64,000 nt of DNA, from assembly GCF_018320785.1 (NCBI RefSeq), contig NC_054886.1, positions 3,595,207 to 3,659,206 of the forward strand. The letters run 5' to 3'. The notes beneath the pieces are model-generated. The model saw only the letters and a program-made list of their open reading frames with translations. It did not search any database and had not been told where the DNA came from. The number at the start of each line of letters is the position of its first letter. Positions within the stretch are counted from its first letter, which is position 1. This DNA is from Cheilinus undulatus. Taxonomy: Eukaryota > Chordata > Actinopteri > Labriformes > Labridae. Made by a program: the position numbers and the translations under genes. This document shows positions 33,657-63,689 of this stretch, one piece after another.

Positions 33657-34932
33657 ATGACATCTGCAACATTTGTCTTCATCCTGACGTGTTTGATCGT
33701 AGGAGAAACTGGTGAGTTAGGTTTTCATTGCTCTGGTTTTTAATTCAACATTTGTTATCTTCTTATCCAATATGTTCCTGTGTTTTTAACACAATATTCT
33801 TTGTCTTTATTCTGATTTCAGCTCAGACAGTTGATCTGAAATTGGCTTCATCTGTTCATCATGAGAGAAAAGAAACTGGAGAGAATCTGACTTTACAATG
33901 TGCCATAGAAAATATTAGTTTGAAAAAATATTTTTGGTTCAAGCAAACTCTTGGAGAAAAACTGAGGCCCATCTCTTATTTCGGCAAAAGTGGAAAATTG
34001 AGTGGTTTCATTCGTGAGTTTAACAATCCACGTTTCACAATGAAAATTCAAAATGGTAAAAATGAAATAACAATCTCAGATTTGCAAATGTCAGACTCAG
34101 CTACATATCACTGCATATGTTCAAATGAATACATGATAGACGTTCTAGCCACCATCACAGTCAGTGTGAAGGGTTCAGGTGTGAGCGTCCCAGCTCTGGT
34201 CCATCAGTCAAAGTCAGAAACCATCCAGCCAGGAGGCTCTGTGACTCTGAACTGTACAGTCCACAGTCGGACCTACTACAGCACTGTGGTCTCATGTGAA
34301 CACATACTGTTTGGAGACGGGACCAAGCTGGACTTTGGAGGTGAGTTTCTTCATTGTCAACATGATCCCACATGAGAACTCTCTAATCAGACTAAACACA
34401 GATATAAAGCTCTGAGCTCGGCTTCTTCTGTCTGACTGTACCCACAGATGAGGTGAGCTCTGGTGTCTTGGTGTATTCTCTGAGTGGAGCTTTGATATCT
34501 GCAGTTATCCTGATAGTTGTCCTGGCCTTCTTATTGTACAAGATGAACAAAAGAATCTGCTTCTTATCTCCAGGTATGATCACTAACACTGTTAGTATCT
34601 TCCTGTTTTCACTAAGTCTTCATTCTGAATTCAAGAGTGATTTCTGTGTTTCACCATCAGAGACACAAGCAAGATTTTCAGCTCCCTCCACAACAAACAT
34701 GGAGGTAAAATTAAATGCTGCCAACGAACCATTCATAGCATGTTTCTTTGCACGTTTTCAGCTTTTTCCAAGAGACATTTTTTGATTTTCTCCAACATAT
34801 ATATTTTTCTAGGGTAACAGAGGAGCAGACGACGTCTCTTATGCTGCTCTGAACGTTAACATGCCCAACACATCAAGAAGACAGAGAAACACAGCCAGAG
34901 ATGAATGTGTGTATTCCAGTGTGAGGCAGTAG
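33657..34932 (+). CDS. nitr: NITR gene F (V domain, truncated I domain, ITIM tail)
   Basis: Exons 33657-33711, 33822-34340, 34448-34573, 34661-34704 and 34813-34932 join in phase to 287 codons. The V domain is close to that of E (LQCAIENISLKKYFWFKQ, then DSATYHCICSNEYMIDV). The second Ig domain lacks 58 residues: LNCTVHSR runs straight into TYYSTVVSCEHILFGDGTKL. One of the three remaining cysteines is changed to serine, leaving two. The transmembrane helix is the shared SAVILIVVLAFLLY. The tail has VSYAAL (ITIM) and ECVYSSV. The result is a one-domain receptor on a short stalk unless the residual strands fold. It reads open throughout, so it may be expressed. AATAAA candidate at 35260-35265. 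Confidence 0.85.
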
Positions 34933-35532
34933 AAGTCACCATGGTTCATCTTTTACTACGTCACTTTAAACTGATGTTGGACTGATAACATTTTCAGCAA
35001 TGTGACTTTTCTGAATCAGATACGTTCTTGAGTACGTTCTGCTTTAATGAAAACATTTGCATGATTTTAGAGTGAACAAAAATCAAAGCTCTCTCTTTTT
35101 CTAAGTTTTTTTTTTATGTATTCAGTGTTTTTTTCTGTATTTTATTGCCTTTTCATAGACAGTTTCAAACTAAGGTCACGTCCTTTGCGGACTACACCCA
35201 AGAATAACCAGCAGTCCTTTACCAGCTTTTCTTCTTGTGTTATTGATTAATACAAATTAAATAAAAGCTTTTTTTAGTTAAAAAATTACAGTAATTGATT
35301 TTGTTTATAATTTTTTTTTCTTTTTCAGCATTTAGACAAAACAACATGATCAATATTCCTCTGTATAATTTCATCTCTTACTGCAGTCTGACTGGATGTT
35401 TGATTGTATTTTCAATGACTTCTAAGAGTTTTGTGAATCAAAACGTTTAAAATATGATATATTGTAATGGCAATGCTACGATGAATTGTACGTGTTTAAA
35501 CATTAAAATTAAGAAAATAAATGGTCTGTTTC

Positions 35533-35845
35533 TCAGCTCCCTCCACAAGAAACCTGGAGGTCAGATTCTTTCCTTTTTTTTTTTTCTAAGATTTATTTTT
35601 GGGTGTTTTTGTGCCTTTATTTGATAGAAGAGGACAGTTGGTAGTCGTACCACTGATATTCTTTCATCACGTTCTCAACTTTTTCCAAGTTTGATTTTAT
35701 TTTCTCCTACATTTATCTCTATAGACGGTCTCTAACAGGGGCCACCCGCTTCAAGGACAACACCCAAGAATACCCAGCAGTCCTAGACCAGCGCTTGTGC
35801 TCATGTTATTGATTAAAACAAATAAAACTATAGCTTTTTAATTGT
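35533..35845 (+). pseudogene. Relic of an NITR 3' end (linker exon, tail exon start, UTR)
   Basis: CTCAGCTCCCTCCACAAGAA and ACCTGGAGGTCAGATTC match the linker exon and its donor. CTATAGACGGTCTCTAACAG resembles the tail-exon acceptor. Then AACACCCAAGAATACCCAGC repeats the 3' flank of gene F at 35195-35225. The coding part of the tail is gone. This is a tandem duplicate of the gene F 3' end that decayed. Confidence 0.55.
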
Positions 35846-36529
35846 AAACTTACAGTAATAATTAATAATTATACTTTTGTTTTTGCCTTTTAAGGGTGTA
35901 GAAAAAACAGTGAGACTACTATTTCTGTTAAAATGTCATCTCTATATTATAATAGCAGTTCTGCTGTAGATGAATTTACATGTTTTTGACTGAACTGTGA
36001 TGTGTAGTGTAATTGAACCCAGGGATGCAGAGGCAGATGACGAGTTTTAAACAGTTTAATGAAGATAAAGTGGGGGGAAGGGGAAACTCCAGGGTCCAGG
36101 GAGGGAGAGTCTTCATGGGATCGAGAGTGCTAGACAGGCGGCAGGTGAGAGTGAGGGAGGCACTGGAAGGCAAAAAGACACAAGAGTTACAAAAGGTTCA
36201 CAGGAGGCACTGGAAATATACAAAATGTTGCGAGTGAGTCAAGAGGTGGAGTGCAGCAGTCACCACAGGTGAGTAGTCTGCAAAACTCTGACACTGTGAA
36301 GAGACAGCCGCAGCCATATGAAGGACCTTCTTAATCAGGTAACGCGCTGCAGGTGTGACTGCTCTCCACAGTGCCATGGGGGAGGGTGCAACCTCAAAAG
36401 AAGACAGGGTAAGTTGACAGCAAACACAAGTGACCAGCGGAAGCTGGAAACCGGAAGTGACTCAAAATAAAGCAATTTTTTAAATAAACACCACATGAAC
36501 ATTAGAAAAGAATAAATGTTTTTCATCAA

Positions 36530-36830
36530 GGTTAGAATAGTTTTGGATTTTTCACTGTTTTTGTTTTTATTTTGTTTTCAATTCCTGTGTTCAATTTCAC
36601 CTGGTTTTAATGAGTTTTTACTGCTGGTTTGTCAGTTTAATTTTTTTGTTTGTTTGTTTGTTTGTTTGTTTCTGTTTTAATTTTATTTTAGTTAATTTTG
36701 TAAGCGCACTATGTAGTTTTAGTTAGTTTTCTTTTTTTGGTAAAGATTAGTTTTAATTTAGTTTCAGATAACTAAAATGTTTTTTAAATGTTATCTTTAG
36801 TTATTTAGGTAGTTTTAGTTAACTATAATA
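36530..36830. repeat. T-rich TTTTAGTTA dispersed repeat
   Basis: Repeated TTTTAGTTAATT, TAGTTTTAGTTAG and AGTTTCAGATAACTAAAATG motifs and a TTTG microsatellite (36646-36672). The 53437-53918 copy upstream of gene I has complementary AACTAAAAC motifs. The preceding stretch 35970-36530 shows nothing recognisable. Confidence 0.4.
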
Positions 36831-37399
36831 ACTTTGGTCTTTATTAAAAATGTTTGTTTCTTAATTTTTATCAGTACCACATGGAGATCCTCTGTCTTTG
36901 AGACAAATATGACAGGTGGTCTAATAAATTTGTCTCAGAGACCATCCAGCATCATGAAGTGCTTTAATGCGGACTCTTTCATTTTCAGTGAGCTCTCCAC
37001 ATTTTACCATTTTGAACAGGAATGAGGAATTTCAAACTGAATTCACCCAAATTTGAGCCGGCTCACTGGGCTTCTCTGAGAAGTCAGAAATTAATCAAGC
37101 ATAACATTCAACCAATAAAACTCATTTTTTTCTCTTCAGGAATGCAAGTAAATAACTATAATTTAACATATTAATCAAGAAATAATAATGTGTTTTACTA
37201 TTTTTTCCTTTTTTTTTTTTGTAAATTGGTAAATTTGAAAAATCCGTTGAAAACAATAATAATTATATTTTAGCATTAAAATATCATTTGGGTTAAAGAG
37301 CTTCTACATATTGGTGTATTAACCATTGCAGAAACATAAAAAATGATTTTGGTAATTACCAATGCTGTTAGTTTAGGGCAGCTGTGGCATAACCCTACT

Positions 37400-37440
37400 T
37401 TGGTTAGGGTGGTCTAATAAATTTGTAAAGCACTGTATAT
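37400..37440 (+). mobile_element. Tc1-like terminal fragment
   Basis: GGTGGTCTAATAAATTTGTA followed by AAGCACTGTATAT looks like a Tc1-like 3' terminus. A related GGTGGTCTAATAAATTTGTC lies at 36916. Nothing more of the element is readable. Confidence 0.35.
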
Positions 37441-37914
37441 TATACACATATTTATTTTAACCATGCAAAGGTAAGACATGTTCAAGTTAGCATTAAATAT
37501 GCAGCAAACATTTGGAAATATAGTCATTAAAAGTGAGATATTTGGATTCACCTCTGCTGTGGTGGAGAAAGACTCTGACTGAGACACAAAGACATTCTTC
37601 ACAGAAAAAAAAAAATTAAAAAATTGAAATGGAATGTCACCTTTCTGTTGTATTTGCCTTGCACAATCTTAACAGGTAAAATAGTTATTTATAGCAGACT
37701 CCCTTAAAGAAGTTTTATACATATGAGCAGTCTCTCAAAGTTCTTGTTCCTTTAAAAGACACAAAATAGTTTTTAGTTTCAGTAGGCATGTATAAACTAC
37801 CACTTGTAGATCTCTCTTTCTCTCTATTGTTGACTGTCTCTTCATTTCACTGTGAAAACTACAAACAAACCAAACAGTCAGACTCATGTGTGCATACACT
37901 TCCAAGAGGGTCTG

Positions 37915-38345
37915 GCTGCAGCCCTCGAGCAAACCTCTACGCTGGGGCGTTCGGTTGGAGACCTCTACGCTGGGGCGAAACCTCTTTGCCGGGGCGTGAC
38001 GTCATTGCCCAAGCCTACGCTTGGGTGTGCAGCGTGTTAGCTGTTGTTAGCATGACTACAACACTGTGCTTATGACGCATTAGCATAGCCCTGTACGCTG
38101 GGGCTTTATTTGGGCGTGCAGCAACACACCCTGACCACTACGCTGGGCCCCAGCGTAGTGGTCTACGCTGGACCGTGCAGACGCCGACCCGTATGGGTCT
38201 ATGCCATGCTATGCTATGGGTCTATGCTATGCTATGCTATGCTATTAAACCCCGACTGGTTCAGTTTAGGCGTTTAAATCCGACTGGTTAGGTTTAGGGT
38301 CTGTAAGGGCTTTGGCACAGCCAAAGCCCTTTCAGGGTTTTAAGA
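37915..38345. repeat. GC-rich CTACGCTGGGGC repeat block with perfect hairpins
   Basis: CTACGCTGGGG or a close variant recurs several times between 37938 and 38170, interspersed with GGGGCGTGACGTCATTGCCC. A perfect 31-nt palindrome with 15-base arms lies at 38133-38163. A CTATG/GCTATGCTATGC run occupies 38198-38245. A perfect 12-bp stem with a 3-base loop (AAGGGCTTTGGC) is at 38305-38331. The base composition differs sharply from the AT-rich flanks. I do not recognise the element. Confidence 0.6.
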
Positions 38346-38814
38346 CTCAAGCCATAAGACCGAGGACTAAGATTTGAAGACCGATGAGCAAAGACACATG
38401 AGAGCAGGCTTCCCGGAACTCTTTTTACTCAGAGGCACGCCCCCTTATTGGATATAGACGATAGACGATACAGACGATAAACGGACTCAACGGACTCTAA
38501 GCAGAATATAAACATCAGAAGTTTAAAAGGCTCAATAACTGATGGACTGGAATTTAAAATAAGTGTTTGAAATAAGCATTTACAGTGAAATATTGAGAAT
38601 AAATAAAACCAATAAGAAAGACTAAATCAGTGTAGTTTAATATTTGATTAGTTTTCCAATTCACCTTCAAACATAAAACATGTTAAAAGCTCATAAAAGC
38701 TAAAGATTCAGATTTAAATCTTCCGACAACATTTATATGATTTTTTTCTACATTCAGTCCATCATAGCCTTAATTCAGACAAAAGATAGTCATAGGAAAG
38801 TGAGCCATGTTTTG

Positions 38815-39425
38815 TCTGTCTAATTTAGTCCAAATTTAGCCCAATAATAGTCGTTAAAAAATGACAATATTACAGCCACGTCTTTATCGAGAGGTCTGTA
38901 TAGAGACATCTTTTCAACAACCTGAAATTTACAGCATTTCACCGTTTACTTTTCTATTAAATCTAGACGTTTTTTTAAACATCTTTACCAATATTTTTTT
39001 CTAAGTGTTATAGTCTATTTATAAATTTCTGTTTATTAGATTATGAAGAGAATTAAAATCAGACAGCAGCAGTCTGTCTGATTTTAAGAAGAAACACGTT
39101 TAAATCACAGTGGTATTAATAAAGTTTCTATCAGTCTGATAGCGTCAGGTTTGATCATTAGCCTTCACACTGAATAATTATGATAATTAATAATTTGGTA
39201 ATATAGCATTTGCAGGTAGAAAGAGCCCGAATGTTTTTTGATATCAAAAAATAGTTGCAATGAAAATTAAAACGTCTCCACTCTGTCTAAACAATGTCCA
39301 GATTTAATAGAAAAGTGAAAGGTGAAAAGATGTAATTTTCATGTTGTTGTAAAGACATTTCTGTATGGTTGTACTTTAACGACTATTATTGGGCTAAAAT
39401 CAGGTGGACAGAATAATTTAATCAT
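38815..39425. mobile_element. Foldback-type inverted repeat
   Basis: The left arm (about 38815-38975) holds TTTAGCCCAATAATAGTCGT, then GACATCTTTTCAACAACCTG and ACTTTTCTATTAAATCTAGAC. The right arm (about 39270-39420) holds the complement of these in reverse order, with some mismatches. Outer CCATAAGAC motifs at 38352 and (inverted) 39438 hint at a larger element. Confidence 0.55.
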
Positions 39426-39555
39426 TTTAATCATCAGTCTTATGGCTTCAGTCTTCCATGTCAATTCCTTGGTCTCTCCATGAGTCTTTGGTGGGCGGAA
39501 CTAAGACTCAAGGAAAAGACTCAAGCCTTATAATAAGAGAAGTGAGACGCACCCC

Positions 39556-40788
39556 ATATAGAGCACCAGACACACAGCACCATAGAGAGCACCAGACACA
39601 CAGCACCATAGAGAGCACCAGACACACAGCACCATGGAGAGCACCAGACACACAGCACCATGGAGAGCACCAGACACACAGCACCATAGAAATGCCAGAC
39701 ACACAGCACCATGGAGAGCACCTGACACACAGCACTGTGGAGAGCACCAGACACACAGCACCATGGAGAGCACCAGACACACAGCACCATAGAGAGCACC
39801 AGACACACAGCACCATAGAAATACCAGACACACAGCACCATAGAAATACCAGACACACAGCACCATAGAAATACCAGACACACAGCACCATGGAGAGCAC
39901 CAGACACACAGCACCATGGAGAGCACCAGACACACAGCACCATAGAAATACCAGACACACAGCACCATAGAGAGCACCAGACACACAGCACCATAGAAAT
40001 ACCAGACACACAGCACCATAGAAATACCAGACACACAGCACCATGGAGAGCACCAGACACACAGCACCATAGAAATACCAGACACACAGCACCATAGAAA
40101 TACCAGACACACAGCACCATGGAGAGCACCAGACACACAGCACCATAGAAATACCAGACACACAGCACCATGGAGAGCACCAGACACACAGCACCATAGA
40201 GAGCACCAGACACACAGCACCATGGAGAGCACCAGACACACAGCACCATGGAGAGCACCAGACACACAGCACCATAGAGAGCACCAGACACACAGCACCA
40301 TAGAGAGCACCAGACACACAGCACCATAGAGAGCACCAGACACACAGCACCATGGAGAGTACCAGACACACAGCACCATGGAGAGCACCAGACACACAGC
40401 ACCATAGAGAGCACCAGACACACAGCACCATAGAGAGCACCAGACACACAGCACCATGGAGAGCACCAGACACACAGCACCATGAGAGCACCTGACACAC
40501 AGCACCATAGAGAGCACCTGACACACAGCACCATGAGAGCACCTGACACACAGCACCATAGAGAGCACCAGACACACAGCACCATAGAAATACCAGACAC
40601 ACAGCACCATGGAGAGCACCAGACACACAGCACCATAGAAATACCAGACACACAGCACCATGGAGAGCACCAGACACACAGCACCATGGAGAGCACCAGA
40701 CACACAGCACCATAGAAATACCAGACACACAGCACCATGGAGAGCACCAGACACACAGCACCATAGAGAGCACCAGACACACAGCACG
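39556..40788. repeat. Minisatellite with mixed 26- and 25-bp units, about 48 copies
   Basis: Unit type 1 is GAGAGCACCAGACACACAGC plus ACCATR (26 bp). Type 2 is GAAATACCAGACACACAGC plus ACCATA (25 bp). The two types alternate irregularly and a few CACCTGACAC or missing-base variants occur. Because the unit has no stop in any minus frame, all three minus frames stay open for more than 1.2 kb. This is a tandem-repeat artefact and not a gene. Confidence 0.95.
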
Positions 40789-40799
40789 CTACACACAGT

Positions 40800-41594
40800 A
40801 GGAGCCACCTTAAACTCCTATTTAACCACCAGGATCAGCCAAACAGAGAAGACACTACTTCTGGCTTACATAGGGGTGTTGCTGGGTGGAAGGTACCAAG
40901 TGTTTGTGAGCCACAAAGCTATGACACTCAAACTTTAAACAGCAGCTAAAGTATGGAGATTTTTATTCTGTTCTTTGGGGAAGCACCAGTGATTCCTACA
41001 TTACCCATAATGCAACTCTAATGACATCTTTAGAAATTATTTCAGACTTGGGAAATCAGTCAATATTAAACTTTACAGCTATTAATTATTTTTTCATGTA
41101 TTTGTTTTTTAAACTGACCCTTCAAACTGACCTCTGTTCTTTGTTACATGCAGTTCAGGTCCTGGTCTGTAGGGGGCAATAGTTCACCTACAGTAGCTGT
41201 AGCACAAGTGCCACTTCTTCATATTTACAAACATAATCAGCATATTTTTCTGACTGTATATTTTTAGCAATCAAAACTGTTTCAGCAGACCACTGCAGTA
41301 GCAACGACTGCACACATGAGATATTTATAGTGAAGTCAACACAGAGCAACACCACAGAGGTTCACTCAAGCATTTCAAGTGTGCTCTTTTGTTTTCCAAC
41401 CACATAGTGATGTGTGCAGAGACACTATTGTGGTCACCACATATATAACTGTCATGTCTAACCTAGTTCAGAGCCCTGATTGCAGGTACCACTATAATAG
41501 CAATGCTACTTCAGTGGTTTCCCCCATTCTGGTCAGATATGAACATGAACATGGCTGCTGTATAGCCACTGTAAGGGGAAAAAACTTAGCATAC
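40800..41594. other. Intergenic, no recognised feature
   Basis: No splice-flanked exon or clear repeat was seen. GGTCCTGGTCTGTAGGGGGC at 41159 resembles short motifs common in fish intergenic DNA. Confidence 0.35.
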
Positions 41595-42115
41595 AAACCC
41601 AATGCCAAAAAAGTTAGGACATTATGTAATAAAAAGAAAATAAAGTGAATTGCAATTTCATTTCAATCTTTATCCATTAAGTATTAAAACTGATCAGATT
41701 CATTGATTTATTTAAAATATACACACATCCTGAATTTGATGCCTGAAACATGTCTCGTTCCTGCCTGCACACAGAGGAACACTGTTCATCAGCTGTTGGA
41801 ATATTTGCAGCCTTTCTCAAAGTGGAGAACTTTGCAGCCTTTCAGGAGAGTTACCCAATCATGGTTCTGTTACCTCTTACCAACTAACCAGCTTACCTGT
41901 CGAATGTTCAAGGTGTTTTTGACACTTTGCAAAACTTTCCCATGTTGCAGGCATCAAATTTAGAATGTGTGTGTATTTAGAAAACATATTTTACCAGTTT
42001 GAACATTAAATATTTTGTCTTTGTGCTGAATTCAGTTGAATACAGGTTGACAAGTATTTGCAGGTCATTGAATTATTATTTTTTATTCACATTTTGCACA
42101 ACTTACCAATCTGTT
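41595..42115 (+). mobile_element. Non-autonomous member of the CCAAAAAAGTTGGGAC family
   Basis: The left end reads CCCAATGCCAAAAAAGTTAG; the right end reads TTTGTGCTGAATTCAGTTGA then TTTTTATTCACATTTTGCAC, as in the 3' part of the copy at 4240-4420. No transposase is left. Confidence 0.5.
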
Positions 42116-42119
42116 TGGT

Positions 42120-46485: not shown

Positions 46486-47184
46486 GTGTTAGCTGATTTT
46501 ATTAAATTACACTTTTGTTCCTTATATTGAAGTCTTCACCATGTCTTTTTGGCTGTTTCTGATGGTGTGGGAATGCCTCATTTAAATAAAAATGAAAATA
46601 AGTCATCAGCATGTTTCATGCAGTGTCTACTGTGTTTATTGGTGCAATGAGAGGAGAAATCCTGACAGAGATGGCTGGAGTTCATTGTGTTGAAGAATAC
46701 AAACAAAAATCAAACATGAAATAAGAAAATGTTTTCTGATATGGCCTGAATTTCATGGCACCCTCATAATCTTCAACTCCAACCTTTCTGTGCTGTCAGA
46801 TGATACTGGGGATGTCTATGAGCCCCCCACTGTGAAATTGCACAATATATCAGTATTGCTGTGTAAAGGTCAAAAGGTCAAATGACAAAGGAGCTGTGAT
46901 ATTGCACTGTTGCAGAGCTGCAGTCTTTAAAGAACTCCTACTTAAATATTAGGTTAGTGTTTTTCCCTCTTTCAGTGTATGTGTTTATTCAGTCTGAAGG
47001 GTTAAATCCTCTGTCATAAACTGATGTCCTCATTTCTGGGCCCGGGCCTCCAACGCTGCAACCACACGCTCCATAAGTTTCAGCCAGGTACTTGCATGAG
47101 CATCCAGTTTCTGCACAAGAGCCTCAGCCCTCTCCAGACACTCCAGCGCATCTACCTTCCAATCTTGCTTCTTTTCTCCTGTGG
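46486..47184. repeat. Segmental duplication, copy 2 (partner 1-684)
   Basis: It matches the first 684 bases of the window in the same orientation, including the minus-strand exon, its acceptor and its AATAAA (46635-46640). It has a 15-base insertion (near 46525-46540) relative to copy 1. Confidence 0.85.
47030..47178 (-). CDS. Terminal coding exon of an unrecognised gene, copy 2 (partial)
   Basis: The minus-strand acceptor (TGACCACAG) and the 48-codon frame of the exon at 531-679 are kept, ending in the same TGA. It opens EKKQDWKVDALECLERAEAL and ends ALEARAQK. Six bases differ over 149: five change an amino acid and one is silent. That gives no sign of purifying selection between the copies. 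Upstream exons were not found, and similarity ends at the acceptor. It may be a relic. Confidence 0.4.
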
Positions 47185-47480
47185 TCATAGGTTTCATCAT
47201 ATATTGTCAACTTTATTGTGAAATAACACAATTCCAAGATATAACTAAAGAGTGCATCTTTCTAGCTGCCAACTGCTCTGGTTGCCTGGCAACAAATCTT
47301 GACAGATCTTTGATCAACAGATTTGACTTTATTAGTATAAAAATTGTCTCTAAAACAGACCAGTTTTGTTTTCCTCCTGCCATGTTTCTGTCTTTTCCGG
47401 AAATAAAGAAGCAGAAAGACGTCATGTCACGTGGGGCAGACATGTGCAGTCAGTAGAAATATAACTATTAGTCTCAGGTG

Positions 47481-48376: not shown

Positions 48377-49612
48377 ATGACATCTCCAACGTTTGTCTTC
48401 TTCTTCACTCTTTTGGTCCTTGAGTACACTGGTGAGTAAAATTCATAGTGATTTGTTTTTGTTTCAATTACTTCTAATTTTATCTGTTTCAGTATTTAAA
48501 ACTCGTCTCATTTCAGCCCAGACAGATTCTCTGACCTCGTCTGATCGTCATGAGACTCCAGGAACTGGAGAGAGTCTGACTTTACAATGTGCCGTCAAAT
48601 ATGATAGTTCTACATGGTTTTATTGGTACAAGCAAACTGTTGGAGGAAAACTAGAAGAAGTCTCTCAGTTCAACAAAAAAAGCGGTCATCGCAGTCTTAA
48701 AGGCGAGAACAAACGTTTCACACTGGACACACAAAACGGTAAAAATGACCTGACCATCTCAGGTTTGATTATGTCTGACTCAGCTACATATCACTGTGCA
48801 AGTTGCTCAAACTGTGCAGTCAAAATACTAAAAACCATCACAGTCAGTGTGAAGGGTTCAGTGGTCTGCCTCCCAGCTCTGGTCCTTCAATCAGAGTCTG
48901 AAACCATCCAGCCAGGAGGCTCTGTGACTCTGAACTGTACAGTCCACACTGGGACCTACTACTGTGCTGTGGTCTCATGTGGAGACGGGACCAAGCTAGA
49001 CTTTGGAGGTGAGTTTCTTCATTGTCAACATGATCCCACATGAGAACTCTCTAATCAGACTAAACACAGATATAAAGCTCTGAGCTCGGCTTCTTCTGTC
49101 TGACTGTACCCACAGATGAGTTGAGCTCTGGTGTCTTGGTGTATTCTCTGAGTGGAGCTTTGATATCTGCAGTTATCCTGATAGTTGTCCTGGCCTTCTT
49201 ATTGTACAAGATGAACAAAAGAATCTGCTTCTTATCTCCAGGTATGATCACTAACACTGTTAGTATCTTCCTGTTTTCACTAAGTCTTCATTCTGAATTC
49301 AAGAGTGATTTCTGTGTTTCACCATCAGAGATACAAGCAAGATTTTCAGCTCCCTCCACAACAAACATGGAGGTAAGATTAGTTCCTTTAACTCTACTGC
49401 TGAAGTACCATACAAAAACATAGGTCACGCACTTTTATCATGTTAAAAATTTTCAAAGTCCATTCTGTGACAGAGTCATGCATGTTTTACAGGTTAACAG
49501 AGGAGCAGATGACGTCTGTTATGCTGCTCTGAACGTTAACATGCCCAACACATCAAGAAGACAGAGAAACACAGCCAGAGATGAATGTGTGTATTCCAGT
49601 GTGAGGCAGTAG
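48377..49612 (+). CDS. nitr: NITR gene G (V domain, truncated I domain, ITIM tail)
   Basis: Exons 48377-48431, 48517-49008, 49116-49241, 49329-49372 and 49493-49612 join in phase to 278 codons. The V domain has LQCAVKY, FYWYKQTVGGK and DSATYHCASCSNC, giving two extra cysteines in the CDR3-like loop. The I domain has the 58-residue loss (LNCTVHTG to TYYCAVVSC) and also lacks HILFG, so the J-like motif is reduced to GDGTKLDFGG. A further cysteine is created in the linker (GSVVCLPAL). The transmembrane and ITIM tail (VCYAAL, ECVYSSV) match D and F. With a reduced promoter block its expression may differ. It reads open from ATG to stop. Confidence 0.85.
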
Positions 49613-51173: not shown

Positions 51174-52410
51174 ATGACATCTCTGACGTTTGTCTTCATG
51201 CTGATGTTTTTGGTACGGGGTAAAGTTGGTGAGTTGAGTTTATTATTGCTCCATTCTGTGGTTCAATAAATGTCAGCTTCAAATTCAGTTTGATTCATTA
51301 TTTCAAACTGAATAATCTCTTTATCTCTTCTTGTTTCAGCTCAGACAGCTGCTCTGAAATCTCCATCTGTTCATCATCAGAGACCAGGAACTGGAGAGAG
51401 TCTGACTTTACAATGTGCCATCAAAGATCATCCTTCTACATGGCTTTATTGGTACACACAAGCTTTTGGAGAAAATTTAAGTCCCATCTGTTATTTCTCA
51501 AAATATGGTACCTATTATAGATTTTTGGGGGACTTTCAGAACAATACCCACTTCACACTGGATACTGAAAATGGGGAAACCATCTTAAAAATCTCAGATC
51601 TGCAAATATCAGACTCAGCTATGTATCACTGCTTTGGCTCGGATAACTCTGTGATAGAAATTCTAGCAACCATCACAGTCAGTGTGAAGGGTTCAGGTGT
51701 GAGCGTCCCAGCTCTGGTCCATCAGTCAGAGTCTGAAACCATCCAGCCAGGAGGCTCTGTGACTCTGAACTGTACAGACAAATGCGGGACCTACGACTGC
51801 GCTGTGGTCTCATGTGGAGACGGGACCAAGCTGGACTCTGGAGGTGAGTTTCTTCATTGTCAACATGATCCCACATGAGAACTCTCTAATCAGACTAAAC
51901 ACAGATATAAAGCTCTGAGCTCGGCTTCTTCTGTCTGACTGTACCCACAGATGAGGAGATCTCGTGTATCTTTGTGTATTCTCTGAGTGGAGCTTTGATA
52001 TTTCAGACTGTCCTGATAGTTGTCCTGGTCGCTTTACTGGCCTTCACAGTTCACCAGTTGAACAAAAGAAACAGCAGCAAATCTGACGGTAGTATTATTT
52101 ATTCTCTAAAGCTTGTTTGACTTTAATGACTTTAATTTAAAATACATTTTTCTTTGTGTCTCAGTCAGAGTCTTCATCCACCACAACAGAGGTGAACCCA
52201 TTTACCTTTATTACAAGATATTTGTTTCACATTAAACACTTGCTAATTGTACTTTGCATGAAAAATAAATATATGTAAAATCAATGTTATTACCAGGATG
52301 ACCAAAACCTCCAGCAGCTCTATCCTGCTGCAGTCAATGTGACCAAGAGATCAAGAAGACAGAGAGATCTGACCTGGAGTGAATGTGTGTACCACACCTT
52401 AAGGAAGTAA
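51174..52410 (+). CDS. nitr: NITR gene H (V domain, truncated I domain, non-ITIM tail)
   Basis: Exons 51174-51228, 51340-51843, 51951-52088, 52169-52191 and 52297-52410 join in phase to 277 codons. The V domain has LQCAIKD, LYWYTQAFGEN and DSAMYHCFGSD, plus a cysteine in the C' strand (SPICYFSKYG). The usual lysine of WYKQ is threonine. The I domain carries both the 58-residue and the HILFG losses; it reads LNCTDKCGTYDCAVVSCGDG. The last codons read LDSGG instead of LDFGG. The transmembrane exon is 12 nt longer and distinct (IFQTVLIVVLVALLAF), with a glutamine inside the helix. The tail is the E type: QQLYPAAV (not an ITIM) and ECVYHTLRK. H is the source-like form of the tail that E carries. 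Confidence 0.85.
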
Positions 52411-52419
52411 AACCTGACA

Positions 52420-53430: not shown

Positions 53431-53436
53431 TTTATC

Positions 53437-54726: not shown

Positions 54727-54790
54727 GTCAGTGTACTTCCTATACAAGTCTCATTTCTTGTTAGCCAATCAAACGCAGCGTGGTCTGTGA
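54727..54790 (+). promoter_or_regulatory. ETS-like plus CCAAT promoter block of gene I
   Basis: GTCAGTGTACTTCCTATACA is followed by CCAATCAAACGCAGCGTGG at 54765. Layout equals that of F. Confidence 0.6.
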
Positions 54791-54840
54791 AGAGAGAGAA
54801 ACTGTCAGTTTTCTGACATTTAGCAGGAAGATTTGAGCAC

Positions 54841-56888
54841 GATGACATCTCCAACATTTGTCTTCATCCTGACGTGGTTGGTCGTAGGGGGAAATGGTAA
54901 GTTAGGTGATTGATCTATTTTCAGTTCAACATGTGTTATCTTCTTCTTCAGCATGTTTCAGAGTTTAAATGTTATCTTCTTTATCTTTATTCTCATTTCA
55001 GCTCAGACAGCTGCTCTGAAATCTTCGTCTGTTCATCATGAGAGACGAGAAACTGGAGAGAGTCTGACTTTGAAATGTGAGATCAAAGATAATGGCTCAT
55101 GGATTTATTGGTTTAAGCAAACTCTTGGAGAGAAGCTGAGGCCGGTCTGTTCTTTTAACAAACATGGAGCTCAGAGCAGTTTGTTTGGTGAGTTTAAGGA
55201 CAATCCACGCTTCACACTGGATACTGGAAATAGTAACTTAATGATCTCTGATCTGAAAATGTCAGACTCAGCCATTTATCACTGCATCTGTTACCACTAC
55301 CCCAAATTAGAAACTCTAGAGACCATCACAGTCAGTGTGAAGGGTTCAGGTGTGAGCGTCCCAGCTCTGGTCCATCAGTCAGAGTCTGAAACCATCCAGC
55401 CAGGAGGCTCTGTGACTCTGAACTGTACAGTCCACACTGGGACCTGTGATGGAGAACACAGTGTTTACTGGTTCAGAAACTCTGAGGAAGCTCATCCAGG
55501 ACTCATTTACACCCATGGAGGCAGGAATGATCAGTGTGAGAGGAACCCTCACTCACACACTCACACTTGTGTCTACAACTTGGCCATGAGGAGCCTGAAT
55601 CTTTCTCATGCTGGGACCTACTACTGCGCTGTGGTCTCATGTGGACACATACTGTTTGGAGACGGGACCAAGCTGGACTTTGGAGGTGAGTTTCTTCATT
55701 GATGTGTCTGAGCCCCTGACAAACCCAGAGAATAGACCCTCCCCAGCTGTGAATTATGATGGTATCAGTGCATGTGTGTTGGATCAGTAGCGTTGGTACG
55801 AGCGTCCTGGCAGTTACTTCAGTTTGGTCGAACTATCATTGAGTTCTGATGTTAAAAATATTGAATCAAAGCCATTTTAACCACTTTATACACTCACTTT
55901 TCCCAGTTTTACTTGACACTTTTCATCAGTTTTTACCATTTTCAGGTCTTTCAGGACTTTCTGCCACTAATTCAACATAATGTTGTCACTTTTAACTTAT
56001 TGTTGCTCATTTCAAAATCCAGTTCACCACTTTTTCTTTGTATTTGTGCCTCTAAACTCAATTTTGCCACTTTGTCATCCAATTTTTCCTCATTTTTAAG
56101 CCCGCTTCTGCCACTTTTGACTCATTGTTGCCACTATTTTCCCCTTGTAACACTTTTAACACCCAGTTTCACCACTTGTTACCCTTTTCCACCATATTTT
56201 TCTTCCAGTTTCTGCCACAGTTTGACATTTTAAACCCATTTTAGCTTTTTTAACCCATATCTGCTACAGTTAAAAACCCTTCATTACCTTTTCTGCCAAT
56301 GTTTTTTACTCTTTTTTAATTTATTTTTAAGCAAAGAAGTTTACATTTCTTAAAAGGTTATTTACTACAGCATGCTGTCTGACTGTACCCACAGATGAGG
56401 TGAGCTCTGGTGTCTTGGTGTATTCTCTGAGTGGAGCTTTGATATCTGCAGTTATCCTGATAGTTGTCCTGGCCTTCTTATTGTACAAGATGAACAAAAG
56501 AATCTGCTTCTTATCTCAAGGTATGATCACTAACACTGTTAGTATCTTCCTGTTTTCACTAAGTCTTCATTCTGAATTCAAGAGTGATTTCTGTGTTTCA
56601 CCATCAGAGATACAAGCAAGATTTTCAGCTCCCTCCACAACAAACATGGAGGTAAAATAAAGTATTGCTGAAGCCCCTTTATAAAACCTTTTATAGCATC
56701 CTTCTTGACATGTTTTCAACTATTTTCAGGGGTAATTTTATGACATTCCTCTTCATTTTCTTACATAGGTTAACAGAGGAGCAGACGACGTCTGTTATGC
56801 CGCTGTGAACGTTAACATGCCCAACACATCAAGAAGACAGAGAAACACAGCCAGAGATGAATGTGTGTATTCCAGTGTGAGGCAGTAG
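54841..56888 (+). CDS. nitr: NITR gene I (V + full I domain, ITIM tail)
   Basis: Exons 54841-54895, 55002-55685, 56395-56520, 56608-56651 and 56769-56888 join in phase to 342 codons. The V domain has LKCEIKD, IYWFKQTLGEK, a cysteine in the C' strand (RPVCSFNKHG) and DSAIYHCICYHY in the CDR3-like loop. The C' and CDR3 cysteines could pair. The second Ig domain is complete with six cysteines and FGDGTKLDF. The transmembrane helix and ITIM tail (VCYAAV, ECVYSSV) match D. Intron 2 is 709 bases instead of about 107, because a repeat has replaced its middle while both splice sites are intact. Confidence 0.9.
55704..56330 (+). repeat. Repeat with unique head and pyrimidine tail, intron 2 of gene I
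   Basis: The head (GAGCCCCTGACAAACCCAGA to GTGTGTTGGATCAGTAGCG) matches 12335-12480 in gene B. The tail has TTTTGCCACTTT and CCCATTTT units. It replaces about 85 bases of the standard intron between TTCTTCATTG and TCTGACTGTACCCACAG. Confidence 0.65.
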
Positions 56889-57106
56889 AAGTCACCATGG
56901 TTCATCTTTTAATACGTCACTTTAAACTGATGTTGGACCAGATTCTAACATTTTCTTTGTTGAATTCACTATCACTGATTCACTGCTGTGTTTTTTTTTT
57001 ATGAATTTTAAATGATTTGAGTTGAACATAATTAATGAAAACCAAAGTCCTCTTTTAACCCAGGTTTTGTTTTGTACCTTGATCTTATTATTGTTGTGTT
57101 TTAGGG

Positions 57107-57576
57107 CAGTGGTTCTCAACTGGTCCAGCTTCTTATGAAAGATCATGACCCAAGTTTCCAAAAATTTTTTAACAAAGCATGTTTAGTGAATTTAATTTGT
57201 TGCAGTTTGGAGCATGACTGGACCAAAACAGGGACAAAACTGACAAATTTTATACCCTCTCCCCATCATTATTCGTAAATTTTTGCCAATTTCCCAGAAA
57301 CTTGTGAAATTACTTTCTTATTATGGGAAAAGTAGTCATTTATTGCAAGAAGAGGACAAAATTTAGTTGAAAAATTGATCAAACATTTAAATTTACCCAA
57401 TTTCATTGTAAAACAGTAAAAAAAAAAAAAAAAAAAGATATGCTGCATTTCAAATAAAGACTTCAGGACTTTTGCTACTATTTTTTTTTTTTTTTTTTCA
57501 GACACTTAGTCACAATTCACTGAAAACTGCTCCACTGACCATTTTTGGGTCCCAACCCATGGGTTGAGAACCACTG
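57107..57576. mobile_element. hAT-type MITE with perfect 8-bp TSD
   Basis: It starts CAGTGGTTCTCAACTGG and ends GGGTTGAGAACCACTG, giving inverted CAGTGGTTCTCAAC termini. TTTTAGGG flanks both sides exactly (57099-57106 and 57577-57584). At 470 bp it has no transposase. The clean duplication suggests a fairly recent insertion. Confidence 0.85.
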
Positions 57577-57956
57577 TTTTAGGGGTTTATTTGCATTTAT
57601 TTGAGACAAAGAGTTTAAATTTGAATGACATGCATGAACAGAGCTCCAGTTTGGCCTTGAACCCAGGCTGTCTGCATCGAGACCAACCAGTGGCCTTAGC
57701 CCAGCTTTGTTTATCAAGCATAAAACCTAAACAGTGTGCCTTAGTTAGAGTTATTATTTTGAATGGTTCAGTACGGTCCCACATAGGCAGTATTTCTAGG
57801 TCAAAATATCATCTTAACCAGTTTAACTGGATTTTTTACCATATTTTCAACAACATGATTTTCTAAATATGAATATTTTAAAATGTTGTATTTCAATAGC
57901 AGTGCTTTTTGCTTTTGGAATTTTACATTTGAAGACTAAACATGAGATAATAACAA

Positions 57957-57965
57957 ATATATATG

Positions 57966-57996
<31 letters not shown>

Positions 57997-57998
57997 TT
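57957..57998. repeat. AT dinucleotide microsatellite with poly-T
   Basis: A run of AT repeats followed by TTTTTTTTTT. The rest of 57590-58200 is unremarkable. Confidence 0.7.
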
Positions 57999-58239
57999 AC
58001 CCCCCAGAGGTTTCAGTCTGATTTCTTGACACAGTCTTGAAAGTGTAATTGATTCAAACATCTAAGCTGTAAAACTGTGACATCTTAAAACTTTAGGGTT
58101 AAACTGATAAACTGATGTATGGATTATCAGACTCCAACCATCAGGTGAATCTATCTTGCAAAACTCCAATCTACAATATCTGTAACAGAAAAAGGACCAG
58201 ACCAGTCAGCATGGGGATTAGCTGTAGTGTGAGTCGGTA

Positions 58240-58570
58240 TAAACAACGGCTGCTGGAGGAGCAGTTAGCTCAGATGTAGCCACAGCGGCAGTTTTATCAG
58301 AACTGGACCACAGTTCTTTATGAAATAAAGACAAAACAACACCACTGAAAGCTTTTGATGGCAGAAAAGATGTTTTCATGCTTCTCCTGACCTGCTTCTG
58401 CATGACTTTGAGATCGTTACAAGTGGGGTTGAGTTGTAAGCTGGTGGCTACTGCTGGTGTAGCAGTTAGCTTAGCTATGGTATGGCTGCTCTTTAACCAC
58501 ATTTCTTTATTACAACAAGAGTACAGAGCCACACTGACAGCTTCTCTTGGCAGAGAGGATGTTGACCTGC
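58240..58570. repeat. Diverged tandem duplication, unit near 200 bp
   Basis: GGAGGAGCAGTTAGCTCAG with CACCACTGAAAGCTTTTGAT and GGCAGAAAAGATG is echoed by TGGTGTAGCAGTTAGCTTAG with GCCACACTGACAGCTTCTCT and GGCAGAGAGGATG about 195 bases on. Confidence 0.5.
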
Positions 58571-59035
58571 TTTATGAATTTTATCTGCCATAGCTCGGTT
58601 CATGCAGAGCTAGCCTGTAGAGCTCAGGTTGGTCCTGGAGATGTATGTCTACGCCCTCGTCTGGTCTGTCTCTCTGATTGGCCTGTAATGAATGTGACGG
58701 ACAGGATGATCAACTAATCACCTTTTGAGAGTTATATAAAAAGTCCTGCCCTTCCCAAACACTACGTATGGAAGGAGAGTCCCTCTTTTGTTTTCCAAAT
58801 ATATGATAAATCATGATTAATTATTAACAAAAGCCTTGAAAAAATTAGATAAATCCTTTTATTGCTTGACTGATACTGTGACTGCTGGAGGTCCACAGTT
58901 AATACTAAACTGTATACTGTACTGGTTCTGATTCATGGATAGGTGTCATAGAGTGAGGGAGAGAAGCCATTTTAAATGGAGAAACAGCTTCAGGCTTCAG
59001 AGCTGGAATGACTCTGAAATGGAACAGTAGGTGGA

Positions 59036-59573
59036 TTTAAAGGGACAATGTGTAGAATTTGGCATTTTAGCGACATCTAGCGTCCAGATTTCAGAATGAG
59101 CCGATCTGTTACCAAAACGTCACATCACTAGGCGACGAGAGCATGTGAAGACCAAAAAGGATCGTGAGCCGGACATCATTTACAGCAGTGACGAGGTGAG
59201 GGTTTATTCATTCCTATTTGTAACCATTATTTTTATAGATTATAGGTCAGTCTTCTTCTCCACCTGCCTTCCAGGTAGCTTTCAGGACCAGCGGGCAGGT
59301 TCGTATTTAAAAATCGCGTTTCGCTCTTTCTGTCCCCAAAACGTTGCCATAGACAACATGGCGGTTCAATATGGCAGCCTCCGTGGGGGCGACCCGCGGT
59401 AATGTAAATTTATAAAGCTTTTTTCTAATTTTGTAAAAAGAAAATGAAAGTTTAAAGGGGATGATTGTGCACTTATTTTAACATACTTCACATAGATATA
59501 TAAACATTATATCCCATGTACACCGTTTCTGTTTGGCGAAATGCAGCCAAATTCTACACATTGTACCTTTAAA
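59036..59573. mobile_element. MITE with TTTAAAGGGACAATGTGTAG termini
   Basis: The left end TTTAAAGGGACAATGTGTAG continues to AATTTGGC; the right end GCCAAATTCTACACATTGTA continues to CCTTTAAA. These are near-perfect inverted repeats of about 28 bp. The interior has a GC-rich segment. No transposase was read. Confidence 0.75.
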
Positions 59574-59844
59574 GGGATATTTTGGTATTTTTGTAGTCTG
59601 GTTGTGGTATAAGGCACTTGGCAAAGTCGAAGTTATGGCCTCCTGTGATTTTGGTGTGCTGCCCCTTTAAGAAGGACTACTTGGTGATTCAGGCAGGGAA
59701 GCTAGGCTATACAGGGTAGCAGACAGGTACACTAGCTCTGTGTAATTTAGCACATTTTTATATATGGGCCAAGAAAAAAACAATCTTTGCTCTATCGATG
59801 TTTTTATATTAATGTTTCATTTTCCACACGTAGGCCTTTCAGAC

Positions 59845-60350
59845 TGGCAGGGCTCCGTGCCGGTTCCTGAACCTAATTTTGAACCAGCCAGCTATTACAA
59901 ACAAAGAAATATTGGTTCTGAACCTCAAAAGTTGGTTCTTAGCTGGAGCCAAAAATAGTTGGTTCTTTTTGGGAACCATGACATCATCAGTAGGCGGTTC
60001 ATATTCTAGGTTATGAAGACGAGCAGAAAGTGGAGAAAAAGTAGAAAAAGTGATCTGGTTGTAATCTGGGTATCGACAGAATTCCAGGTGAGGCTGGAGA
60101 GTAGAACAAGGAGGGGAGAAAGGCTGGGTTCACCTGAAAACCAGACCAAATAATTATTAAAAACTAGAAACTGAAGAAGGAACACCAGGACAGCAAGAGA
60201 GACTTGGGTTAAAGTGGAGCTGGGCATGGTGATACATGTTTAACATGTCAGACCACTTTGGTTCTGCTTAAACTGGTGTGAATGTGGGCTGGTTCACCAG
60301 AAAGAACCAGAGCCAAAACCAGAACCATGTCTGTCTGAAAGCACTAAAAG
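59845..60350. mobile_element. GGTTCTGAACC-rich hAT-like MITE remnant
   Basis: The left part has GGTTCCTGAACC, GGTTCTGAACC and GGTTCTTAGC motifs; the right part ends AGAACCATGTCTGTCTGAAA. Similar text is found in other fish MITEs. Ends are not precise. Confidence 0.35.
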
Positions 60351-60359
60351 AAAAAATCT

Positions 60360-61260
60360 AACACATTTTTGCAATGCAAACTACTATTATGTGTCCTCCC
60401 ACCTCAGTGTATGGTCTTTTCCTTATCAGCATTTTAGGTCTGTGGGCTTCGACAGAGACGATGACAACAAACAAAACTAAAACAAAACCAAAAGAGGGAT
60501 TTTGAGAGTGGAGATGATGAGCTGTTTACTGCAGATTTGAGGGGATACCTAATGTAAGCAGAGGAATAATTCCTACAGATGGAGACTCAGCAGGAACAAA
60601 GAGAGGAGAGAAACTTCATTGAAAACTAGAGAGCAGGTTACCTGGTGGTGTTGGTGTGTAAATTATTAGCCTATGAACTTGAAGAGCCACTGCTGTCAGA
60701 GGTGGAACCTCACAACACTTCTTCAGACATTTCTTATCAAGGATCGCGGCTCACACGCGCCTGCAGCCTGCATCACACCCCATCCAGAGTTCCCTGCCTA
60801 ACTGAACAGTGGTGTTTTATGGACTTTCTAGATCTTGAACTGGAGAAATTGACCCTGGCCTGAACAGTTGGATGGATATTTGTCATTTCTCTAAGTTTTT
60901 GTCTCTGAGCAAGCCCGCTGACCTAACAGCTGATCAGATATGCTGAGCTGGTAGCCAAAGCTTGCATAGCAATATAGTGCCACAACACAGGCTTTCTTAG
61001 AGAAAAATAAAATGCTTCAAAGATTTTTGATAGAGTGTATAATTGAGCCAATGTGGCTTTTTTGGCCCATTTTAAAAATGAAACCTGCTTGATTACATGG
61101 AAAACCCATTTCATATGCTGCAGCCCAGCCTCCCTGCTGGTATGACCAGTGAGTCCTTCTTAAAGGGGCAGCGCACACTGAAATCACTGGAGGCTAGTGC
61201 CACTAATATTGCCAAGAACTTCTTATGACCCAACTCCAAAAATACCTTTTAAAGCACGTT
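60360..61260. other. Intergenic, no recognised feature
   Basis: No exon with both splice signals or any family match was seen. Confidence 0.35.
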
Positions 61261-61264
61261 TCTG

Positions 61265-61500
61265 GTTGTCTGACTACTCAAAGATCTTTGTCACACTCAG
61301 TCATTCACACTGAGGACTGCTATGCAGAGTGGACATCAGTGTTAACTAATCCCATCCACACATTCAAACACCACTGATGCAGCAGTGGGAGCAGTTTGGG
61401 GTTCACTGTCCTGCCAAAGGACTGATAGACATGTCACTAAAGGAGCTGGGGGATTGAAGCCACAGGATTCTGGAGGCCTTTGCAGCATGGAGTCAGATGT
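61265..61500 (-). mobile_element. SINE-like fragment
   Basis: ATTCACACTGAGGACTGC, then CACTGATGCAGCAGTGGGAG and GGGGGATTGAAGCCACAGGA look like an inverted, decayed tRNA-type SINE whose B-box would lie near 61450. Confidence 0.35.
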
Positions 61501-62020
61501 GACACTGGGTGGTACTTTTAAACAGCTTTTCTCCCTTATTATGTGAGATCCATTAATGTCTAAAATTACTGGTTTCTACTGAAGACTCTTAAATCTGAAA
61601 GAAAAACTACTGAGCGCTGTCACTACAAGGCTTGGACAGATTCAGTGGGCTGTACCATGACAGAATCAAACATAGAAAGGAGGGGCGCTGTAACAAAAGG
61701 CCCCTCCATGTGATGTGATTGGACCAGCCATCTGTCATTACAGAGAGAACAACCAATGGGCTGCTGCCTCTGCTCTGTGGGTTGGCTACAGGAAATTAAA
61801 GGAAGGAAGTGTAAACAAACCATAGAGAAATAAAGTGTATTTACCTTCCAGGAAACTGCCCAGTATGCAAAATTACCACTGCAGCCCTAGCAAAGATGAG
61901 CTACATCAAGTTTCATCACTGAAGCAAAGTAGACAGATAATAGAAACATCACACTAAAAACCCACATCACAAAACTGTGAGAATGTCAGTACATGCCCCA
62001 TATAAGTTTCATTTCTTGTT

Positions 62021-62050
62021 GGCCAATCAAACGCAGCGTGGTCTGTGAAG
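62021..62050 (+). promoter_or_regulatory. CCAAT promoter block of gene J
   Basis: GGCCAATCAAACGCAGCGTG is intact, with TCTGTGAAGAG after it. The upstream ETS-like site has been lost (CATGCCCCATA in its place). Confidence 0.55.
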
Positions 62051-62100
62051 AGCTGAGACACTGTCAGTATTCTTCCATTCAGCACCAAGATTTCAGCACA

Positions 62101-63689
62101 ATGACATCTCCAACATTTGTCTTCATCCTGACATGTTTGGTCCTAAACAACATTGGTGAGTGAAGTTTGCACTACTCTACTTTTTTAGACTTAAAGTAGT
62201 AAGAGTGAATTTAACCCTTTAAGGCCTGAAAACACAATTAATAGCCAGAAAATTCTCATTTTTTGAAACTGAAATTATTATTTCACTTTCTACTGACATC
62301 CAAAAAATCAAAATTTCCTTAAAATTCAACATATATGTTTTTTGTATCTGATTTGATACATTAGGTGTTTTTGTTAATCCACTTGAGGGCATTTTGATCA
62401 TTTATCAGTTTGTGTTCATAAGTTTTTTTTTAAATTAATTTATTGATCATACTGATTAGATAGAGGTATCATGAAATTATGTATCAAATATACAACCAGT
62501 TTTAAGGGGTTAATAATAATGTTTAATATTTTAACTGTAAAATTCTTTCAAACTGAACCTTTGTCTTTCCTCTCATTTCAGCTCAGACAGTTGCTCTGAA
62601 ATCAGCTTCATCTGTTCATCACAAGGAACTCGAAGCTGGGGAGAGTCTGACACTGAAATGTGACTTCAACAATAAACAGACTACATTTAAGTATTATTGG
62701 TATAAGCAGATTCTCGGGGAGGACCTGCAGCTCATCTCTTCCTACTTCAAATATGATGAAAAAAGGTTCCACAGTAAATTTAAGGATGATCCACGTTTCA
62801 CACTGGATGCTCACGATGGGACAAATCACTTAAACATCACAGATTTACAGCTGTCAGACTCAGCTACATATCACTGCATTGTTTGCAGATCATATGAAAT
62901 TAAAATTTTAAAAACCATCGCAGTCAGTGTGAAGGGTTCAGGTCTGAGTGTCCCAGCTCTGGTCCATCAGTCAGAGTCTGAAACCATCCAGCCAGGAGGC
63001 TCTGTGACTCTGAACTGTACAGTCCGCACTGGGACCTACGACTGCACTGTGGTCTCATGTGGACACATACTGTTTGGAGACGGGACCAAGCTGGACTTTG
63101 AAGGTGAGTTTCTCCATTGTCAACATGATCCCACATGAGAACTCTCCAATCAGACTAAACACAGATATAAAGCTCTGAGCTCGGCTTCTTCTGTCTGACT
63201 GTACCCACAGATGAGGTGAGCTCTGGTGTCTTGGTGTATTCTCTGAGTGGAGCTTTGATATCTGCAGTTATCCTGATAGTTGTCCTGGCCTTCTTATTGT
63301 ACAAGATGAACAAAAGAATCTGCTTCTTATCTCAAGGTATGATCACTAACACTGTTAGTATCTTCCTGTTTTCTCTAAGTCTTCATTCTAAATTCAAGAG
63401 TGATTTCTGTGTTTCACCATCAGAGATACAAGCAAGATTTTCAGCTCCCTCCACAACAAACATGGAGGTAAGATTTAGGACTGGAGACTAAAAATTCTAA
63501 ACCTTTTTTTCTGCATTTTTACATGTTTCTCGAGGCCCATTTTGTGATAGATGTAAATGTTTTTCACAGGGTAACAGAGGAGCAGATGACGTCTGTTATG
63601 CTGCTCTGAACGTTAACATGCCCAACACATCAAGAAGACAGAGAAACACAGCCAGAGATGAATGTGTGTATTCCAGTGTGAGGCAGTAG
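62101..63689 (+). CDS. nitr: NITR gene J (V domain, truncated I domain, ITIM tail)
   Basis: Exons 62101-62155, 62582-63103, 63211-63336, 63424-63467 and 63570-63689 join in phase to 288 codons. The V domain is the most divergent of the D-J group (LKCDFNN, YYWYKQILGEDL, DSATYHCIVC), with an extra CDR3 cysteine. The I domain has the 58-residue loss (LNCTVRTG to TYDCTVVSC) but keeps HILFGDGTKLDF. The transmembrane helix and tail (VCYAAL, ECVYSSV) are the common type. AATAAA is at 63764-63769. Intron 1 is 426 bases, longer than its counterparts. The gene reads open throughout. Confidence 0.85.

Follow-up and report, generated by a model that had tools for sequence, protein, structure and literature searches.

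An in-frame 174-bp deletion in the I domain of Cheilinus undulatus novel immune-type receptor genes and its distribution among V-domain lineages

We analyzed a 64,000-nucleotide stretch of the Cheilinus undulatus genome (hereafter the window; contig C22, NC_054886.1, positions 3595207–3659206, in an assembly of 1.17 Gb and 46 contigs). The receptor genes in the window are teleost novel immune-type receptor (NITR) genes, of a killer-cell-like type, with a leader exon, a single extracellular exon (exon 2), a membrane exon and tail exons bearing tyrosine motifs. An identical stretch of 174 bp is missing from the second (I) immunoglobulin (Ig) domain in four of them (F, G, H, and J), and the same loss was found in seven further genes on the contig. 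On trees of the V domain, truncated genes are scattered among full-length ones, and genes with divergent V domains have nearly uniform I segments. We consider it likely that the deletion occurred once or a few times by a repeat-mediated event, that gene conversion of the I segment then carried it between loci, and that mostly inhibitory receptors with a single V domain resulted. Letters A–J denote genes of the initial annotation, made from the sequence of the window, and later letters were assigned in the follow-up analysis.

The 174-bp deletion in the I domain

All seven exon-2 proteins scanned from the window had a V-set match in Pfam. In genes D, E, and I, the V and I domains lie within one exon, as in NITR clusters of the chromosome-18 type. 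The initial annotation had read a complete second Ig domain in these three genes, which the sequence and a second Ig match in Pfam bore out; no such match was obtained for F, G, H, or J. Translation of E and alignment likewise confirmed that the latter four lack the same 58 residues, including three cysteines and the tryptophan, encoded in E by codons (Table 1) for TCDGEHSVYWFRNSEEAHPGLIYTHGGRNDQCERNPHSHTHTCVYNLAMRSLNLSHAG. Exon 2 measures 693 nt in E and 519 nt in F, a difference of exactly 174. The exons of G (492 nt) and H (504 nt) owe their length to an additional 15-bp loss downstream (CGHILFGDG to CGDG). The six conserved cysteines by which two-domain NITRs were sought in earlier work (PMC2442602) are present in the I domain of D, E, and I, and two to four are left in F, G, H, and J; since NITRs with one domain are recognized as belonging to the family, this concerns the subclass of the truncated genes and not their NITR membership. 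The J-like end closing the I domain, FGDGTKLDF, whose last residue departs from the published motif FGXGTXLXV, is kept in F and J (in J followed by DFE), and G and H have only GDGTKLD.

The lost stretch is flanked in E by two copies of the 9-bp repeat CTGGGACCT, 174 bases apart. Exon 2 of E contains three direct repeats of 9 bp and none longer, with spacings of 174, 199, and 8 bases, and the CTGGGACCT pair is the only one spaced in frame. A repeat-mediated in-frame loss, as proposed at the outset, is thus well supported. The protein text had been described as jumping from LNCTVHTG to TYYC or TYDC in all four genes. This form is exact in G only; J reads VRTG-TYDC, F reads VHSR-TYYS (DNA, CACAGTCGGACC) and H reads TDKCG-TYDC (DNA, ACAGACAAATGCGGGACC). 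The net length lost at this site is nevertheless identical in the four genes. Base changes cluster at the junctions of F, H (Table 1), and O (outside the window), within near-identical surroundings.

Table 1. Positions of the genes and sequence features discussed in the text (window coordinates unless C22 is given)
Feature	Position	Strand	Basis or remark
Gene D exon 2, full I domain	24427..25122	-	sequence, Pfam
Gene E exon 2, V and complete I domain, full-length reference	28248..28940	+	693 nt, open; two Pfam Ig matches
Left CTGGGACCT copy in E	28692..28700	+	sequence
174 bases (58 codons) of E missing from F, G, H, and J	28697..28870	+	translation, length, pairwise alignment
Right CTGGGACCT copy in E, 174 bases on	28866..28874	+	sequence
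Gene F, truncated receptor, 287-aa open frame, ITIM VSYAAL	33657..34932	+	joined predicted exons
Gene F exon 2, 174-bp deletion; junction 34266–34274 = GTCGGACCT; F-strand Cys to Ser	33822..34340	+	
Gene F last exon, ITIM VSYAAL, end ECVYSSVRQ	34813..34932	+	
Gene G exon 2, 174-bp and 15-bp deletions; junction 48949–48957 = plain repeat	48517..49008	+	
Gene H exon 2, both deletions; altered junction 51778–51792 (ACAGACAAATGCGGGACC), extra Cys	51340..51843	+	
Gene I exon 2, full I domain; long intron 2 (709 nt) next	55002..55685	+	sequence
Gene I intron 2	55686..56394	+	
Gene J, truncated receptor, 288-aa open frame, ITIM VCYAAL	62101..63689	+	joined predicted exons
Gene J exon 2, 174-bp deletion only; junction 63029–63037 = plain repeat	62582..63103	+	
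Gene J last exon, VCYAAL, end ECVYSSVRQ	63570..63689	+	
Truncated gene L	C22: 3682131		
Truncated gene O	C22: 3697296	-	
Truncated gene R	C22: 3732909	-	
Truncated gene S	C22: 3735970		
Truncated gene Z	C22: 3899405		
Truncated gene AB	C22: 3913511		
Truncated gene AD	C22: 3929794		

The deletion was present in 11 of the 42 exon-2-like loci examined in the genome. The set of four truncated receptors recognized initially stands, yet it is not confined to the window, as L, O, R, S, Z, AB, and AD on the same contig carry the deletion as well. Breakpoints differing between genes had been named as an outcome that would speak against a common loss; the net length is the same in 11/11 cases, and differences are seen in the junction bases of F, H, and O. 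A survey of NITR matches, in which 150 of 204 candidates were scored and counts are therefore lower bounds, gave nine further places on C22, and the deletion was found in none of the four of these that were examined. Other truncations of the I domain were also observed on this contig. In a B-type gene, one of these four places (C22: 3876804–3877238), a different part of the domain is lost, with the break after CTVHTGTCDGEHSVY. In K (C22: 3675238) and W (C22: 3789594, reverse strand) nearly the whole I domain is gone, and the break is unlike the 174-bp one; the V domain of K is joined to ...GNRIKLDSG, and W has a frameshift in V. A leader exon was looked for in both and found for neither.

Descent of the V domain and exchange of the I segment

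For the analysis of descent we aligned 23 E-type genes, 12 full and 11 truncated. Mapped on the tree of the V domain, and on that of 240 upstream bases plus V, the full or truncated state changes eight times, compared with a mean of 8.0 for shuffled labels; strongly supported branches alone force at least five changes. A single clade of the 11 truncated genes was rejected (approximately unbiased test, p = 2e-101 and 6e-46). Groups with both full and truncated members (E/F, D/R, T/H, V/L, and AC/(Z,AB)) had strong support on one or both trees. We thus concluded that the loss was not simply inherited together with the V domains. The initial suggestion of an ancestral loss spread by duplication or conversion must be divided accordingly: spread through duplication alone was ruled out by the V trees, and conversion is favored by sequence markers, by a fall in divergence where V meets I and by the bounded cassettes of Z and AB.

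In a set of 21 genes, the proportion of synonymous differences (pS) was 0.346 in the V domain and 0.023 and 0.025 in two flanks of the I domain. Low values in the I flanks beside high ones in V indicate that the I segment was homogenized between loci. Measured per 24-base step in the same set, divergence was 0.11–0.46 across the upstream sequence and V, and 0.00–0.06 between the V/I boundary and the opening bases of intron 2, with the step placed at the boundary itself. Two markers within the I segment were compared between the truncated genes and 10 full genes (M and V, whose right ends are broken, were left out). The 15-bp loss occurs in 7 of 11 truncated and in none of the full genes (Fisher test, 0.004), and a change of GCT to ACT is carried by 6 of the 11 truncated genes and by no full one (0.012), related genes being treated as independent in both tests. 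When 15 chosen pairs were put to a run test, nine had their longest identical run in the I cassette (permutation p 0.0002–0.063, uncorrected).

Intron 2 provides a further view of these exchanges. Its usual length is 107 nt; in four of the 21 genes measured (I, Y, Z, and AB) it is long (709–1363 nt) and of one kind. Gene X has an intron 2 of 2440 nt of another kind. A dispersed element as the source of the long intron was considered and rejected: within the DNA searched, no locus other than I, Y, Z, and AB yielded the extra sequence, from which we infer that the long intron is probably the older form. I and Y have full, Z and AB truncated I domains. Pairwise identity among the four was 65–78% in the long intron (92.5% for Z/AB) and 77–80% in the V domain (90.7% for Z/AB), and the left I flank was 100% identical in all six pairs. 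When Z and AB were compared with S, which has a short intron, the truncated cassette was 99.3% identical over 153 bases, with V identities of 74.4 and 72.6%. Such a near-identical tract, bounded on both sides, is the pattern that gene conversion would make. Taken together, the evidence favors spread of the truncated cassette, from one or more origins and in either direction, over repeated deletion.

Proposed mechanism and alternative explanations

According to the explanation that we prefer, an ancestral gene lost 174 bp in frame between its two CTGGGACCT copies, as the sequence shows, and slippage or single-strand annealing would have been the step responsible. The middle of the I domain was thereby removed, from after the first conserved cysteine (LNC) to just before the TYYC motif. 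The truncated I segment would then have passed to distinct V lineages via gene conversion or a similar short ectopic exchange, in a cluster whose I segment is held near-uniform while V domains and intron 1 diverge. The second, 15-bp deletion would have arisen on the truncated form and travelled along with it. Spread of the truncated segment among distinct V lineages is strongly supported; its mechanism of exchange we infer. A broader version, which we offer as a tentative possibility, treats the cluster as combinatorial. Diverse V halves would be joined by repeated conversion to a few exchangeable cassettes next to the membrane (full, 174-deleted, and 174+15-deleted), each conversion beginning at a sharp boundary within a single exon. 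Both lengths would be kept by selection, since reach from the membrane would matter for signaling.

Several observations weigh against the preferred explanation or limit it. Past the start of intron 2, divergence in the 21-gene set climbs back to 0.18–0.32, because genes with long introns and other membrane forms are included, and on a tree of 230 bp from this region the deletion state takes six changes, as many as with shuffled labels. In 6 of the 15 pairs the longest identity run lies outside the I cassette. The markers are not cleanly nested: ACT is also found in a distant full gene, da (3946951), and truncated genes carry ACT and the 15-bp loss jointly, singly, or not at all, so that a single origin needs several exchanges. 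Z and AB, being mutually similar in V, are perhaps a single case. Relative to the plain repeat, 2, 4, and 6 changes are seen at the junctions of F, O, and H, respectively, which could record more than one deletion event. As to the products, gene O is very probably dead, judging from its altered splice acceptor and a membrane exon that is out of frame. Activating NITRs are marked by positively charged membrane residues; the predicted membrane segment of Z (GALIFKTVLIVVLVM) has a lysine inside, and Z may therefore not be inhibitory. Finally, the structure models on which an unfolded stalk partly rests (see below) are shallow and of low confidence, and in the full-length E the residues 118–139, the first stretch of the I segment and one that the remnant has too, also had a pLDDT below 50; an unfolded stalk is thus no more than likely.

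If the repeat were a deletion hotspot, the 174 bp could have been lost separately in each V lineage, with the identity of the flanks produced by independent homogenization. The material for such events exists, as CTGGGACCT stands at both ends in 9 of the 12 full E-type genes, and F, O, and H differ at their junctions. Yet all 11 losses have the same net length, even where junction bases differ. Moreover, the 15-bp loss and, within the E-type set, ACT are restricted to truncated genes, and the 15-bp loss itself requires five changes on the upstream plus V tree and seven on the V tree, or four when only the truncated genes are considered. A recurrent hotspot on its own is thus disfavored, and we regard this account as unlikely; one or two extra origins of the deletion are possible because the three junctions differ. 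Of the codon changes counted over the 11 genes, 8 are at the 4 junction codons and 31 at the remaining 52. Changes at the junction could stem from additional events, from errors of local repair, or from lost constraint. Exact searches for a source of the odd F, O, and H junctions gave no second full copy in the DNA searched; a 12-base part of the H junction and an 11-base part of the O junction each occur once more, which we took as chance.

Slightly less probable still is that the truncated copies are pseudogenes on their way out, in which the loss is without consequence. This would agree with the state of gene O and with the free change of the remnant, in which 38 differences are residue-changing and 7 silent among the 11 truncated genes, as against 6 and 3 among 10 full genes. 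Reduced conversion is a possible cause of the greater variation of the truncated cassettes, though the silent differences that bear on it are few (7 vs. 3). Against decay, exon 2 is open in 11/11 truncated genes (in O from the third codon), and disabling is commoner in full genes, 7 of 12 of which are open; stops occur in U and AA and a frameshift in AC, and the exon is interrupted in M and V. Ten of the 11 truncated genes keep the membrane exon in frame. By predicted exons, F, J, and S are open from leader to stop, with the tail motif V[SC]YAAL (for G, H, L, R, Z, and AD the tail was identified by frame scans only, and the tail of AB is cut off where the sequence covered ends). Further indels of the remnant (15 bp, 12 bp) preserve the frame, and the V-domain ratio of non-synonymous to synonymous differences (pN/pS) hardly differs between truncated (0.66) and full genes (0.64), which gives no sign of relaxed selection on V. 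An assembly artifact, i.e., collapse of the I domain in near-identical repeats, is very improbable. The I segment is indeed near-identical between copies, where assemblers err; the loss is, however, present at 11 loci with different V domains, several junctions, a shared second deletion, and open frames. The assembly comprises 46 contigs, and the single N run in the DNA read here (100 bases, at 3796123) lies ~60 kb from the nearest truncated gene.

Predicted products and relation to known receptors

From the sequences, most truncated products are probably inhibitory receptors, composed of a V domain, an unfolded stalk of ~50–60 residues left over from the I domain, an uncharged transmembrane segment, and a tail with an immunoreceptor tyrosine-based inhibitory motif (ITIM). 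The motif is VSYAAL in F and VCYAAL in G and J, and the membrane segment of these three genes is without charge; tails of E and H carry LYPAAV and CVYHTL, which are not strict ITIMs. Two tail types, ending in ECVYSSVRQ and ECVYHTLRK, were observed among C22 NITRs, each with full and with truncated I domains. In AlphaFold2 models built from four-sequence alignments, the remnant of J had block pLDDT values of 26–34 and almost no strands, and residues 141–230 of E had block means of 51–68 with strands present. The V domain would likely sit nearer the membrane on a flexible tether, with the signaling tail unchanged. The initial description of a one-Ig-domain product with a short cysteine-bearing stalk holds for the single domain and the short stalk; the cysteines are not uniform and were lost or gained individually, F having one fewer and G and H one more each. 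A constant set of cysteines that could form a CD8-like disulfide hinge in the stalk was not borne out, as F is without the F-strand cysteine, AD is without the last one, and G and H each gained one. A search of solved-structure sequences with E gave mostly antibody fragments among the 60 matches listed and was uninformative for the subclass.

NITR matches on C22 span 3.60–4.09 Mb, with a second group on contig C10. Menin exons were located on C22 at 10.50 Mb, on the same chromosome as the NITR matches and not adjacent to them, which agrees with the published linkage of men1 to the larger NITR cluster of medaka and zebrafish (PMC2442602). A 0.7-kb stretch of the window (1–688) recurs at 46486–47187 with 93% identity.

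NITRs of medaka chromosomes 18 and 21 and of pufferfish have the V and I domains in a single exon (PMC2442602). The present genes share with them this exon, a six-cysteine I domain, an end resembling the J-like motif except in its last residue, an ITIM tail, a membrane segment that in most genes is uncharged, and the presence of more than one cluster per genome; they differ in that 11 loci here retain just both ends of the I domain. NITRs without an I domain, also with a single extracellular Ig domain, are known from medaka, zebrafish, catfish, and Tetraodon; most of them cluster, for which the authors considered one possible ancestral gene (PMC2442602). In contrast, the genes described here retain an in-frame I remnant and lie dispersed between two-domain genes in the V tree. 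According to the zebrafish Nitr9 report (PMC3463160), the activating receptor Nitr9S loses part of its V domain by cryptic splicing. It thus resembles the present genes in being a NITR that lacks a portion of an Ig domain inside an exon, but there the V exon is affected by splicing, whereas here a genomic deletion affects the I domain. The same text states that Western blots of tissues revealed all three Nitr9 isoforms, and in the passage of its conclusions covered here surface detection is named for the long and supershort forms, with Nitr9S not named. A partly cut Ig domain can thus be produced as protein and need not reach the surface. In titles and abstract openings of open-access literature, which left the pufferfish and sea bass NITR papers uncovered, we found no I-domain deletion of this kind.

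Domain shuffling among KIR genes is a reshaping of immune receptors of a similar sort. Regional gene conversion has also reshaped dog CEACAM1 and CEACAM28 (PMC2110893), where the leader and the ligand-binding N domain were homogenized; here it is the membrane-proximal part, with V diverging. Concerted evolution had been judged less likely to play a primary role in NITRs (PMC2442602), whereas the I segment described here evolves in concert. The question of birth-and-death vs. concerted evolution in this family thereby becomes readable base by base, with the V/I boundary dividing both modes within a single exon. Conversion between immune receptor genes can be followed with the truncated cassette as a natural marker, and pairs of full and truncated genes with close V domains (AC/Z, E/F) permit a direct test of the role of the second Ig domain. 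The shared in-exon deletion, found in scattered V lineages and moved with a homogenized I segment, suggests that short and long constant parts have been copied between NITR genes.

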